Of a DNA stretch of 22,166 nucleotides, positions 2,681 through 8,954 are shown in pieces. The notes beneath the pieces are model-generated. The model was not told where the DNA came from. It saw only the letters and a list, made by a program, of their open reading frames with translations, and did not search any database. The position numbers were made by a program, and so were the translations under genes. This DNA comes from a virus. The DNA is taken from positions 1 to 22,166 of the IMG/VR virus record IMGVR_UViG_3300046007_007542, one strand, 5' to 3'. The first letter of the stretch is position 1. The number at the start of each line of letters is the position of its first letter.

Positions 2681-2974
2681 TCAAAACGGAATATCCGAAT
2701 GATCGTCCATCGAAACGTTCACTGAGCTTTCCTGCCTAGCTGGCGCGGGAGTCGGCCCCTTAGTTCCAACCTCCTTCCAGTTGCCAATGATCGGCCCCTT
2801 CTCCCCTGCCATGCGGCGCTCCTTGCCCAGATCCTGCGTGACGAAGCCATCGTTGCCGAACTGGTCCGGCCCTTCTTTGTTGTCGAAGAAGACCAGGCTC
2901 AGGTATTTGCCGTTCTTCCCTTCGTAAAGGGCGGTCTTGTCGATTTTGGTGACGTTGATGTTTGCTGTTCTCAT
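2681..2974 (-). CDS. Small single-stranded-DNA-binding-like protein
   Basis: 97 aa. The N-terminal part is rich in strands (RTANINVTKIDKTALYEGKN, then KYLSLVFFDN), as in an OB fold. A low-complexity linker (GPTPAPARQESS) leads to a C-terminal tip DDHSDIPF. Cellular SSB proteins end in an acidic tail closing with DIPF, which docks replication and repair partners, so this tip is a strong functional hint. The start overlaps the helicase stop (ATGA), placing it last in the replication operon. I infer a phage SSB that coats DNA unwound by the helicase. The fold assignment rests on the tail and context, not on a recognised core motif. Confidence 0.6.
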   Translation of the reverse strand: MRTANINVTKIDKTALYEGKNGKYLSLVFFDNKEGPDQFGNDGFVTQDLGKERRMAGEKGPIIGNWKEVGTKGPTPAPARQESSVNVSMDDHSDIPF

Positions 2975-4749
2975 TGTATTACTTTGTTTGAATCAAATTC
3001 TGTAAATCGGAATCTAGCGGAATCAAAATTGAGTTTGAACATGCCAAGCCATCCGGTTTCGCGCTGCTTCTCGACAATGATCTCGGTATCGTGCATGGAG
3101 CGTTCTTCCTCGCTCGTCAGTTTTCCGGCCTTGCGCTTCTTCTCTTTCTCAGGGTTGCGGAGGACAAGCAGAACGTTGTCTGCATTGTTGACCATTAAGC
3201 TTGAGCCTTTGATGGCATACATGCTAGGTCTTGCTCCATCTTGCGCTGGCTTTGCCAAATGCGCAACCAGATGTAGATGACTTCCCGTTTCTTTGGCAAA
3301 GTCTTGGAGCCGATTGCAAAACTCTCCTTGGGCTGGGTAATCCTCCTCCAAGCCCTGCACTCGCATCAGTGAGTCGATCACGAAATGGCTTGTCCCATAG
3401 CGGCGGTGCGAGAACCACATCATCTCCGTCAGCGAATCCTTGGTGATCGAGCCGACAACATCGGAAAAGACAATGCTTTCGCCTACGTTCCGCGCAAACT
3501 CACGCGCAGCAGTCTCGTTGATGTTCCTTTTTCCGTAGAACACCGACAGCATCTTCCGAAGCTGAGTTTCGACGCGGATCTCGAAAGAGCCGATGAAGAC
3601 AGGAATCCGTGCGCCCAAGAGCTGGGCAACCATGAAGTTGAGCATGGTAGACTTGCCAGCATGCGAGAAGCCGCCCCAGATGGTCAGCTCACCTGGGCGG
3701 AAGTAAAAGCCATCTCCATTGTGCCAATCCATTTTTAGGAACGGCATCGAAAACGGCTCGGGCTTTGGTTTCACGTCCTCGACGAGGCGATCCTCCATTT
3801 CCGCCGTCGTCACCAATCGCTCGATGCGAGGGCGCTTGGCATTGGCAACCCAATCGCGTGCGTCCTCGGCGGTGAATCCAGCCAGCAGGCAATCGTTGGC
3901 GTCCTTTTTGGGCATCGCTACGATAAAGCAACGGTGCTTCCCTAGCCGCGTCACCGCCATGTTGGCGATCTTCCTCCCGGCCTCGTCTTGATCGAACGCC
4001 AAATAGATCGAATCGAACGCTTGGAGGTTGTGCCATTCAAACTCCACCCATGTCGCTCCCGTGCCGTTGGGAACCGACAGCGCAGGGATTCCCCATTGAT
4101 GCCAAGTGGCCGCGTCGATCTGGCCCTCGCAGAGCAGGATTGTCTTTGATCGGTAGCTCGACTCAGGAACGGCTTGCCATCCAAAAAGGCTCGGAGCGCA
4201 ATCCTTGTCCTGCCACACCTTCTTTTTCTCGCCCAGCGTCCGATATGAGCGGTTGATGATCTCGCCGGCTGGAGAGATGCACGGGAAAACAATAGCCTTC
4301 CGGTCTGTGTCGATCTCGATTTTCAGCCTCTCGATAATCTCCGGCTTCAGCCCCCGCGTCTGGGTCAACCAGGCGTAGGCGCGACCATTTGGTGATGGAG
4401 CTTCAGACTTGATTGCGGGAGCGTGGCCGTAAACCCGCTTCTCATGCTGCCTGACAGGCTCGGAGATGCCAAGGTATGTCCTCACCGCAGAAACGGCCTC
4501 TCCTGCTGAAATCGCTCGAGAGAGACGCCAAAGGTCCACTAGATCGCCGTGGTCATCGGTGGCCCAATCTCTCCATTGGCCTGCGTGCCCTCCCGTCATC
4601 GTGAGCTTGAGCGAATCACCTGGTGCGCCTGACAGGTCGCCGCAGATCCACTCGTTGCCGTGACGCCTGCCACCGGGGAGGAGCATTGGCGCAAGCTCCT
4701 CAATCCTGCCGACGAGTTGCTCGGATAGGTCTGAAACGGTCAGAAGCAT
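2971..4749 (-). CDS. TOPRIM/DnaB-type replicative helicase (primase-helicase-like)
   Basis: 592 aa. Residues 1-95 resemble the N-terminal region of primase-helicases (GGRRHGNEWICGD, then GGHAGQWRDWATDDHGDLVDL) but with a single Cys, so the CHC2-type zinc site is absent. A TOPRIM core follows: CEGQIDA (207-213) and AFDQDEAG (251-258). The RecA-like helicase domain has Walker A GGFSHAGKST (359-368), the catalytic-Glu region GSFE (387-390), Walker B HFVIDSL (455-461) and a VAHLAK sensor region (495-500). It most likely forms a ring helicase at the fork, like T7 gp4 or Twinkle. Primase activity is doubtful without the zinc site. It overlaps the upstream initiator gene by 10 nt and the SSB-like gene by ATGA. 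Confidence 0.9.
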   Translation of the reverse strand: MLLTVSDLSEQLVGRIEELAPMLLPGGRRHGNEWICGDLSGAPGDSLKLTMTGGHAGQWRDWATDDHGDLVDLWRLSRAISAGEAVSAVRTYLGISEPVRQHEKRVYGHAPAIKSEAPSPNGRAYAWLTQTRGLKPEIIERLKIEIDTDRKAIVFPCISPAGEIINRSYRTLGEKKKVWQDKDCAPSLFGWQAVPESSYRSKTILLCEGQIDAATWHQWGIPALSVPNGTGATWVEFEWHNLQAFDSIYLAFDQDEAGRKIANMAVTRLGKHRCFIVAMPKKDANDCLLAGFTAEDARDWVANAKRPRIERLVTTAEMEDRLVEDVKPKPEPFSMPFLKMDWHNGDGFYFRPGELTIWGGFSHAGKSTMLNFMVAQLLGARIPVFIGSFEIRVETQLRKMLSVFYGKRNINETAAREFARNVGESIVFSDVVGSITKDSLTEMMWFSHRRYGTSHFVIDSLMRVQGLEEDYPAQGEFCNRLQDFAKETGSHLHLVAHLAKPAQDGARPSMYAIKGSSLMVNNADNVLLVLRNPEKEKKRKAGKLTSEEERSMHDTEIIVEKQRETGWLGMFKLNFDSARFRFTEFDSNKVIQ

Positions 4750-6202: not shown

Positions 6203-8413
6203 TCAAAGCCTGCCAATGGGGCGGTAATGATTTTTAATGTCTTTAATCGCTCCCTTGTAGGCCACAATTATCTTTTGCTCTCGCTTCGGAAACTTGCGAA
6301 CATGTAGCGTTTTTTTGGCCTGCGCAAGGCGAGTAAACTCACATTCAAGATAAATAATTTTGTTGTAGACGCTCAGGCCGTTTTCTTTGAAAAACAGTTC
6401 AGTTTCAGACTCAGAGCAGTAATAAGCTCCATTTTTGTCTCGGCTGTCCCCGGTCATCACGACGAAAAAACAGTTATCATTGAGCGCCTCGATTGCCTTT
6501 TTGTAACCTGCAAAAAGCGTGTCGCGGAATTTTTCGTAGGTGTCCATCGAGTTAATTTCACCTTCTGGAGACTTACCGTCATAGTCAATGTAACGCTCGA
6601 CCTTGTAATACGGAGGACACGTAAAAACCAAATCGAATTTTCCTTCCGGAAGATACGTCGCGCTGTCGCTTTTTATCCACTGAACAGAGGTAAACTCGGA
6701 ACATATCTTGTTGTTTGCGTCACACTGATTTTGCCTAATTTCACTGGCAACGTATTCGTATCCACAAGCGCCTGCAACGTAGCCAAACTGAACGCCGCCG
6801 CCAAAAGGATTGTAAACTCTAGTTCCATTTTTCGGCATAAAGAAACGCGCGATTACCTCACAAGCAACTGGGTCAAGAACGGAGGCATTCCCATTGTGAG
6901 CCTTTGTTGAAACTTTGATTTCTCCGTCTGCGCTAAGCTTTCGCTTGGTATTCACAACATTAGAGAATCCGGCCTCGCCCTGCCAACAGCCCTCGCGGCT
7001 TGCGTAAGATGGATTTTGAACTCCAGCCCTCTCTCCAGATTCATCAATTTTGGTTCGCCATTCTTTCTTCAATCTCAACCAGTCGCCTTTTAACGAACTC
7101 CACACGTTGCACATCGTAATATGAGCCAAAAGCTTGATTCGAGAATCCTCGAAACGGCCTTTGATCATGTAGTGGAAACCTGACATCTTTAAGTATGTCG
7201 TAAACCCAACGCTCTCGAAAACCTTTGGAGTTTCAAACTTGCTTTTAGGGTCAGTCGTAATCAAAGCCGGATAATCATCCTGGTTCTTTGAAAGAACTTC
7301 CAAAACCAGATTTCGGTAAAGCTCTGGCGAATAATGAGCTGGCCGAATAACAGATTGAAGCAAACAAAACTCGCCTACTTCATGGTTGATTTGAAATGTA
7401 AAAAAACCAGCAAACTCACCATCAACCTTTAAAATGATTGCTGAATGAATTTGCATGTTTTTCCTAGCTGCTCGCATTGCAATTCCATCTTCGATTGCGA
7501 GCTTTGCTACGTCGGACTCATAACCTGACCCAATAACACTTTCCACGTGTTCAAATGCCACCGATTTTTTAAACAGTTCTTCTTGCATGCTCTTTTTTGT
7601 TTTTTTGTTGTTTTTCAATGTGTATCCAGAAAGAACGCCGCATTGATCGCTGCAGTCCTCACATTTTCCGGTGAATACGTCCGGTTTGTTGACGCTAATG
7701 TTTACCATAGCGTTTATGTCTTTTCGCTTTTCGACGATCAAATCGCCGGAAATTACAAATGGATGGGAAGCTGGTATTCTTAACGGATTGTCAATTTGCG
7801 GCTCCAACTTGTAAAGTTCCCGCTGAATTGCATCCATGCGCCTTCCATTCTCCGTTTCACCAAATTTGGCTGAAACAATTCTAGCAACTGACCGAAGACC
7901 AAAAGCTTGCGCTCGGTAGAATTGAATCAATCGCCAATCAAGCTCTTCTTTGGTGTCTAATGCTGAAATTGAAGTGTTTAAAACAGCCCCAGCCGCCGCA
8001 AGTCTCTTAAAATGCTCATCTGATGCTGAAACCCAATGCTTTGTAATGATAACTGGGGTTTTTAACTTCCCAAGCCATTCGCAAACTTCAACCGTTCCAT
8101 TCCAATCGTGCGACGGGTCACCCATCGTCCCAATGCGAAACCAGTTTGCGCCGTGCGACATGACTTTTCGCTCAATCAAAGTTTTTTCAGCCGGAATAAT
8201 CTTTCTGCTCACGCTAACTGCAAAATCATAACCATAAAGGGAAGCGAGTTTGTTAGCGTAGCAAGAATCGTAACATCCGACGCCAGGTCTGGCTTTCATT
8301 CCTAGACTGCAACCTTTTACTGTATCGATATCCATTACGCCCTTGCTGTTTACTTCAACTGTCAATCGCTTGGCGTAGCGTTTGAATTTCAAATTAAGCT
8401 GAGTTGCTTTCAT
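6203..8413 (-). CDS. Three-domain DNA modification enzyme: radical-SAM-like + GNAT-like + DNA methyltransferase
   Basis: 736 aa from the ATG at 8413, which overlaps the upstream stop (ATGA); this decides the start. Residues 1-265 have cysteines C35, C47 and C51 (GCYDSCYAN) and strands typical of a radical-SAM-like barrel (FRIGTMGDPSHDW 92-104, PVIITKHW 120-127, NTSISALD 146-153). A second cluster, C251-x2-C254-x3-C258, follows. Residues about 285-420 look like a GNAT acyltransferase (AIILKVDGEFAGFFTF, CLLQSVIRPAHYSPELYRNL, KVFESVGF). Residues about 430-736 are an amino-methyltransferase of a phage type, with VYNPFGGGVQFGYVAG (533-548) for SAM binding, FTCPPYY (597-603) as the catalytic DPPY-like motif, and MTGDSRDKNG (653-662). 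I infer adenine or cytosine methylation plus further elaboration of the base, as a shield against restriction. The methyltransferase is sure; the first two domains are probable. Confidence 0.8.
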   Translation of the reverse strand: MKATQLNLKFKRYAKRLTVEVNSKGVMDIDTVKGCSLGMKARPGVGCYDSCYANKLASLYGYDFAVSVSRKIIPAEKTLIERKVMSHGANWFRIGTMGDPSHDWNGTVEVCEWLGKLKTPVIITKHWVSASDEHFKRLAAAGAVLNTSISALDTKEELDWRLIQFYRAQAFGLRSVARIVSAKFGETENGRRMDAIQRELYKLEPQIDNPLRIPASHPFVISGDLIVEKRKDINAMVNISVNKPDVFTGKCEDCSDQCGVLSGYTLKNNKKTKKSMQEELFKKSVAFEHVESVIGSGYESDVAKLAIEDGIAMRAARKNMQIHSAIILKVDGEFAGFFTFQINHEVGEFCLLQSVIRPAHYSPELYRNLVLEVLSKNQDDYPALITTDPKSKFETPKVFESVGFTTYLKMSGFHYMIKGRFEDSRIKLLAHITMCNVWSSLKGDWLRLKKEWRTKIDESGERAGVQNPSYASREGCWQGEAGFSNVVNTKRKLSADGEIKVSTKAHNGNASVLDPVACEVIARFFMPKNGTRVYNPFGGGVQFGYVAGACGYEYVASEIRQNQCDANNKICSEFTSVQWIKSDSATYLPEGKFDLVFTCPPYYKVERYIDYDGKSPEGEINSMDTYEKFRDTLFAGYKKAIEALNDNCFFVVMTGDSRDKNGAYYCSESETELFFKENGLSVYNKIIYLECEFTRLAQAKKTLHVRKFPKREQKIIVAYKGAIKDIKNHYRPIGRL

Positions 8414-8574
8414 TTTGCTCTGTATTGCCGTTGATATTCCCGATTCCTCTCCGCGCAAATCTCGCATCGCGTCCGATTCGGCACGGCCAACCTAGCGCAG
8501 ATCGCGCATCTACCGGCGGCGATCTGCTTTTCCTGCCAGCGTCGATTTCTAATGGTCTTTCCGTCTCCGTTCAT
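8410..8574 (-). CDS. 54-aa zinc-finger-like protein
   Basis: 54 aa from the ATG at 8574, chosen because it makes an ATGA overlap with the upstream stop. It has two CxxC pairs, RCAIC and RCEIC (about residues 28-31 and 41-44), flanked by basic stretches (TIRNRRWQEKQ and ERNREYQRQYRAK). That is a small treble-clef-like zinc knuckle. Such mini-proteins are frequent in phages and may bind nucleic acid or a partner protein. It is directly coupled by ATGA to the modification enzyme, so it may be an accessory factor of it. Confidence 0.65.
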   Translation of the reverse strand: MNGDGKTIRNRRWQEKQIAAGRCAICARLAVPNRTRCEICAERNREYQRQYRAK

Positions 8575-8954
8575 TTCGTCACCCTTTCCATCTCTGCGTT
8601 GTGCAAATCGACAGTTTCTTGAAAGTTCTGGTGATTCCTGACCATTTCGACGGTCCAAGGCTTCCACTCGACCGGGACGACTTCGCGGATGTGGACCTGC
8701 CTAGCGTCCCCGCTCGCTTTGTCTTTAGCGTCCTCCTCGGTAGGCCAGATTACACACATGCATAGATCATCAAGACCGTAAAGGTTAATCCAGCCCTCCA
8801 GCCTTTTCGGTTTTGGTCGATGCTGATCCACGATTTTTCGAGTATCCGCAATCACATGCATCTCCTCTTCGGTCAAACCTTCAGTATCATCGATGACAGC
8901 GAGGATCTCCAACAGCTTTTCTGCGGCTTCCAGTAGTTCGTTTTGTTCTTTCAT
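8571..8954 (-). CDS. Hypothetical 127-aa phage protein
   Basis: 127 aa from the ATG at 8954; a TTG three codons earlier is less likely. The N-terminal 50 residues are acidic and helical (EQNELLEAAEKLLEILAVID, then LTEEEMHVIADTRKIVDQH), suggesting a coiled coil. The second part (GWINLYGLDDLCMCVIWPT, EEDAKDKASGDARQVHIREVVP) matches a strand/turn/helix/strand pattern seen in many small uncharacterised phage proteins. The last part (WTVEMVRNHQNFQETVDLHN) is helical. No function is recognised. It starts 1 nt after the upstream stop and overlaps the zinc-finger gene by ATGA. Confidence 0.65.
   Translation of the reverse strand: MKEQNELLEAAEKLLEILAVIDDTEGLTEEEMHVIADTRKIVDQHRPKPKRLEGWINLYGLDDLCMCVIWPTEEDAKDKASGDARQVHIREVVPVEWKPWTVEMVRNHQNFQETVDLHNAEMERVTK

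Follow-up and report, generated by a model that had tools for sequence, protein, structure and literature searches.

A radical-SAM-like, GNAT-fold and DNA-methylase fusion protein of uncultured phages as a candidate DNA-base hypermodification enzyme

The window analyzed here, the whole 22,166-base stretch of a virus record, encodes a 736-residue protein, P0001, in which a radical-SAM-like domain, a GNAT-fold domain and a DNA-methylase domain follow one another. On balance, we read P0001 as an enzyme that hypermodifies bases of phage DNA, its single polypeptide carrying three predicted active sites. The gene is a single open reading frame running from 8413 down to 6203, with the following features (window coordinates):

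6203..8413, minus strand: three-domain protein P0001, complete (open reading frame and translation; full-length relatives in viral contigs)
7628..8413, minus strand: radical-SAM-like domain, residues 1-262 (AF2 model, Foldseek, replacement by PF04055 proteins elsewhere)
8261..8311, minus strand: cluster-binding loop C35-x11-C47-x3-C51, right after strand 1 (conservation, model)
8102..8137, minus strand: RIGTMGDPSHDW, after strand 2, at the presumed position of the radical-SAM GGE motif (conservation in alignment A1)
7640..7663, minus strand: C251-x2-C254-x3-C258 (invariant in A1)
7124..7561, minus strand: GNAT-fold domain, residues about 285-430 (AF2 model, fold search)
7439..7471, minus strand: AARKNMQIHSA motif of the GNAT domain, residues 315-325 (invariant columns of alignment A2)
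7352..7372, minus strand: EFCLLQS motif in GNAT strand 4, residues 348-354 (A2, model, motif counts)
6206..7126, minus strand: exocyclic-amino DNA-methylase domain with N-terminal extension, residues 430-736 (profiles, alignments A3 and A6)
6794..6811, minus strand: motif I variant NPFGGG, residues 535-540 (122/122 relatives)
6605..6622, minus strand: motif IV TCPPYY, residues 598-603 ([TSA]CPPYY in 120/122 relatives)

Judging from their translations, the neighbors of P0001 are phage replication and recombination genes, among them a primase/helicase-like protein (2971-4749) and an SSB-like ORF (2681-2974); HNH-like, YqaJ-like, RecT-like and tail-tape-measure-like proteins are also encoded in the window. 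The gene is preceded by a small ORF (8410-8667, minus strand) with several CxxC pairs, zinc-ribbon-like, whose stop overlaps the P0001 start at 8413 as ATGA. This overlap suggests translational coupling of the two.

Searches of sequence libraries recognized nothing in residues 1-430, and we therefore built alignments of relatives and predicted structures. The alignments comprised 57 sequences of the first block (A1; 32-76% identity to the window protein) and 55 of the second (A2). The AF2 model of the first block had a pLDDT of 93, and when the model of residues 1-276 was searched against the PDB with Foldseek, the top 21 matches were radical-SAM enzymes (best E 1.9e-4, best match probability 1.00). 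They included HydE, biotin synthase (BioB), AprD4, pyruvate formate-lyase activase (PFL-AE), MgmA, lipoyl synthase (LIAS), CysS and EpeE. TM-scores were only 0.3-0.5, about 0.4, so the match covers part of the barrel. The second block was modeled with a pLDDT of 87; residues 267-440 gave 318 PDB matches at E <= 1e-3, the best 50 of which were GNATs. Both folds had been proposed in an initial annotation made from the sequence, which named a placing of residues 1-420 in unrelated folds as evidence against its reading; that outcome did not occur.

The cysteines of the first block are conserved across relatives. In the 57 sequences of A1, C51, C251, C254 and C258 are invariant, and conservation is at least 90% at C35 and C47; the pattern Cx(8-14)Cx3C[YFW]A occurs in 100/104 non-redundant relatives and CX2CX3C in all 104. 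In the model, the first three follow strand 32-34, with helix 36-41 next. Their spacing, CX11CX3C here and CX10CX3C in many relatives, differs from the classical CX3CX2C. Within RIGTMGDPSHDW, residues G95, P100 and W104 are invariant and G98 and D99 at least 90% conserved in the same 57 sequences. This segment aligns with VRIGGMTDCFQP of an alternative radical-SAM protein that replaces the block in some relatives (see below), and is presumably the counterpart of the GGE motif. The C251/C254/C258 triad is a possible second metal or cluster site.

Pfam family PF04055 gave no match to the window protein, nor does it appear among the listed family matches of the block's 57 relatives. The replacement proteins pass the PF04055 cut-off (E 1e-11) and carry CX3CX2C. 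A collinear alignment of the alternative protein with the block (170 columns, P 6.5e-4, probability only 27%) helps, if weakly on its own, to tie the latter to the radical-SAM superfamily. DUF5131 (phage Gp37/Gp68), a family of radical-SAM-like proteins, is matched by two of the 57 block members (best E 0.001), and has a similar GC..CYA cysteine motif. It differs in the spacing of the first cysteine and in its partners, and the window protein does not match it.

The C-terminal block matched the phage families phrog_12517 (E 2.1e-39) and phrog_498 (E 1.7e-37), PF01555 at an E value of 9e-4 that is weaker than the curated cut-off, and the PADLOC models mad2 and Type II MTase, which are defense or restriction-system DNA methylases. 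Motif I reads NPFGGG in all 122 non-redundant relatives and DPF in none: the acidic residue that opens this motif (D/E-P-F) is absent, and asparagine is constant where aspartate is usual. Motif I (FxGxG) and motif IV ((S/T/N/D)xPPY) together with the profiles assign the block, in line with the initial annotation, to the exocyclic-amino DNA methylases. Membership of this family makes a DNA adenine or cytosine, modified at its exocyclic amine, the most likely substrate. An enzyme directed at RNA (tRNA or rRNA) or at a host protein, keeping translation going during infection for instance, would fit a weak NCBIfam match (E 0.026) between the methylase core and protein-glutamine methylases and the action on tRNA of Elp3, the best-characterized radical-SAM plus GNAT enzyme (PMC13315578). 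We regard such a target as quite improbable, given that the close relatives of the block are ParB-fused phage DNA methylases and that its PADLOC matches are to DNA methylases as well.

Relatives of P0001 were collected from viral contigs as about 125 non-redundant groups, and phage homologs with the same three-domain order were indeed found, full-length ones at identities down to 55%. GNAT and methylase domains form one polypeptide in nearly all relatives. The radical-SAM block is fused to them in about 49/125 groups and is encoded by a separate gene immediately downstream in 45/125 or immediately upstream in 17/125; in a further ten groups, a dissimilar, PF04055-type radical-SAM gene occupies the downstream place. 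Fused or adjacent, a radical-SAM part is thus present in about 120/125 groups, a total somewhat biased towards presence by two of the four viral scans, which included the radical-SAM block; the other two used GNAT or GNAT-methylase queries that do not favor radical-SAM neighbors. Four groups have no radical-SAM gene, and three of these lie at contig ends. The only phage with intact flanks and no such partner is L044, whose GNAT-methylase (L044:7941-9395) retains all motifs; no radical-SAM gene was detected in its 40.8-kb contig, 8 kb either side. The enzyme may be supplied by the host or have been lost.

On a tree of the GNAT-methylase (122 rows), the arrangement changed 28 times, the minimum being 4. 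Ten scattered positions on the tree carry the alternative radical-SAM protein, and well-supported branches force at least 6 of them. Used as the sole query, one such protein (from L074) found just itself; the wider set was obtained with the GNAT-methylase as query. Genes of a shared pathway are expected to stay adjacent while they split, change order or are replaced, and this pattern provides strong evidence that the radical-SAM, GNAT and methylase parts serve one pathway. No third partner gene recurs near the GNAT-methylase genes, so the gene set looks self-sufficient. Domain architecture and functional coupling are established computationally. The three blocks are separable, as first proposed: over half of the relatives encode the first one on its own. 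The cysteines, NPFGGG and TCPPYY that had been picked out initially lie where they were placed and are conserved beyond chance.

Phages do carry accidental fusions, and the three domains might have been joined by chance without a common function. This is hardly conceivable here and is refuted in the main by the arrangement counts and the tree: full-length relatives diverge to 55% identity, and fission, reordering and replacement have recurred without loss of adjacency. A chance or assembly-derived fusion was also rejected, since L002 and L003 are nearly identical contigs of independent origin and divergent relatives are numerous.

Homologs of the radical-SAM block also exist without a GNAT-methylase (L135, L146 and L148); like the lone GNAT-methylase of L044, the missing PF04055 match and the low TM-scores, they weigh against the hypermodification reading. 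The L148 homolog stands alone between a ParB_N gene, a PAPS-reductase-like gene and a second ParB_N gene (L148:4687-7923), possibly a different modification cluster, and that of L135 lies near a second, PF04055-positive radical-SAM gene with no methylase nearby (L135:5857-9233).

Within the GNAT domain, AARKNMQxHSA was found in 123/125 and EFCLLQS in 124/125 non-redundant relatives; these counts are biased upward, some loci having been found with patterns derived from the GNAT motifs, and two scans mostly used other patterns. The Q/RxxGxG/A loop that binds the CoA pyrophosphate after strand 4 occurs in 0/125 of them. Its absence is the main weakness of the reading that an acyl-derived base is made, and it leaves an acyl donor possible because Mom too appears to be without that loop, as judged by eye from an alignment of Mom sequences. 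The proteins of the Mu Mom family resemble P0001 in having a GNAT-fold domain in a phage DNA-modification setting. Homology of the GNAT block to Mom was rejected, with hhalign P values of 0.4 against nine Mom sequences and 0.78 against Mu Mom alone, and the stretches HYS, ELNR and S[FY]AD by which Mom is recognized are missing. Jumbo-phage Mom domains have endonuclease domains as fusion partners (PMC7824862), unlike the GNAT block, which is joined to methylase and radical-SAM domains. The domain assignments of the initial annotation stand; kinship with Mom and a canonical CoA-binding loop are not supported.

The closest database relatives are ParB-domain methylases. These phage ParB_N-DNA methylases (phrog_498, phrog_12517) share a homologous methylase domain, including part of its N-terminal extension, and begin with a ParB domain; P0001 has no ParB and carries the GNAT domain in that place, preceded by the radical-SAM domain. 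Their motif I is DPF(A/C)GG or D(C/P)FAGD rather than NPFGGG, and their partner is an AdoMetDC-like gene rather than a radical-SAM gene. P0001 could in principle be a plain m6A or m4C methylase, in which the GNAT domain replaces ParB as a non-catalytic DNA-binding or scaffold domain and the radical-SAM domain does a separate job. The ParB-domain relatives and the position of a GNAT domain devoid of the CoA loop at ParB's N-terminal place favor such an enzyme. We nonetheless consider it unlikely: a radical-SAM part is retained in about 120/125 groups even where a dissimilar protein has taken its place in ten, and AARKNMQIHSA and EFCLLQS are almost invariant, more than a scaffold requires.

The AdoMetDC-like gene directly follows the ParB-methylase gene, usually overlapping it, in 62/76 ORFs of the sister family:

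L303:3482-5123, L304:3494-5339 and L307-L386: ParB_N-methylases with motif I D(C/P)FAGD(S/T)VFG, together with a SAM-decarboxylase-like gene

L305 and L306, the two ParB-methylases with DPF(A/C)GG that we looked at, have no such gene. The pairing suggests that decarboxylated SAM serves the sister family as an aminopropyl donor, and the D(C/P)FAGD methylase and its SAM-decarboxylase-like partner could constitute a DNA aminopropyltransferase system. Phage SpeD homologs can, however, be decarboxylases of ornithine or arginine (PMC9992855, PMC10407285).

The sister-family pairing also suggests that relatives of the methylase block can use non-standard donors. A methylase-like domain of P0001 working with a SAM analog might transfer an alkyl or aminoalkyl group, the amine then being acylated by the GNAT domain, with C-H chemistry by the radical-SAM domain. 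Besides that pairing, the altered motif I of both families (FAGD in the sister, NPFGGG in the GNAT-methylases) and the carboxy-SAM precedent of CmoX (PMC12783734) point this way. Such a donor appears improbable in view of the alternative activities of SpeD homologs and of our finding that no AdoMetDC gene adjoins the GNAT-methylase genes. The single co-occurrence (L293:56-6177) comprises an AdoMetDC-like gene and a second methylase-like ORF (FAGD) alongside a GNAT-methylase/radical-SAM pair, and the AdoMetDC-like gene belongs to that second, separate methylase.

To our knowledge, Elp3 is the sole studied precedent for radical-SAM and GNAT domains working on one nucleobase. Fold matches place the two domains of P0001 in the same order as in Elp3, where the GNAT domain produces acetate that moves on to the radical-SAM site to yield a carboxymethyl group on tRNA U34; in both, the domains share one polypeptide, and that of Elp3 acts on a nucleic-acid base (PMC13315578). 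Unlike Elp3, P0001 has no CoA loop motif and has an additional DNA-methylase domain, and in its relatives the radical-SAM part is sometimes a separate gene. Kinship by sequence was dropped as a candidate, as the Elp3 family model TIGR01211 did not match P0001 at E <= 1; no Elp3 was among the best 50 fold matches of the radical-SAM block, and a search of 118 genomes for true Elp3 genes for profile comparison yielded none above the cut-off. Carboxymethyl DNA bases serving as handles are known in phages through another route, the CmoA/CmoX/CmoY 5-carboxymethylcytosine system, in which tRNA-modification chemistry is re-used for a functionalized DNA base (PMC12783734). That system combines carboxy-SAM with a C5-cytosine enzyme, and neither a radical-SAM nor a GNAT domain is mentioned for it (PMC12783734).

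For P0001 as a hypermodification enzyme, we propose that the methylase-like domain would bind DNA, flip out an adenine or cytosine and work at its exocyclic amine, which it would methylate or to which it would attach a SAM-derived group. The radical-SAM domain would make a 5'-deoxyadenosyl radical and so activate a C-H bond, and the GNAT-fold domain would supply or attach an acyl unit, for example an acetyl-derived one. Following the logic of Elp3, the latter might feed acetate to the radical-SAM domain, as in tRNA carboxymethylation. The resulting base, larger than methyl, would hide phage DNA from host nucleases. The Elp3 and phage carboxymethyl-base precedents together favor such an acyl-derived, larger-than-methyl product. 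A more specific version, which we put forward tentatively and at low confidence, is a DNA counterpart of Elongator, in which a radical-SAM/GNAT acetate-radical module combined with a base-flipping methylase would generate a carboxymethyl-type or acyl-derived DNA base; its core may use a non-standard SAM donor. If this is true, we know of no earlier DNA-modification machine that combines radical-SAM with GNAT.

Among 50,697 phage records, nothing matched past the methylase domain, and no cultured phage with the three-domain system was found; 72,556 plasmid records contained no match to the GNAT block. Three full fusions are present in bacterial assemblies of GTDB, namely MAGs of Desulfobacterales and Desulfobacula and a Smithella genome, all in phage-like surroundings. 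In the phylum of Smithella, one of 395 genomes was positive, namely, the query's own. The enzyme family is one of uncultured phages. A literature search of open-licence PMC papers returned no description of the radical-SAM, GNAT and DNA-methylase combination. The three-domain enzyme falls outside Mom, Elp3 and the ParB-methylases, which are defined by their ParB domain.

If the hypermodification reading of P0001 is true, a chemistry that combines radical C-H activation with an acyl unit on the amine of a base would join the known phage DNA modifications, through an enzyme family overlooked by surveys of cultured phages. Elp3 would then no longer be the only example in which radical-SAM and GNAT domains work together on a nucleobase, P0001 being the second. 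It would also predict a definite new nucleoside and offer a compact enzyme for DNA labeling.
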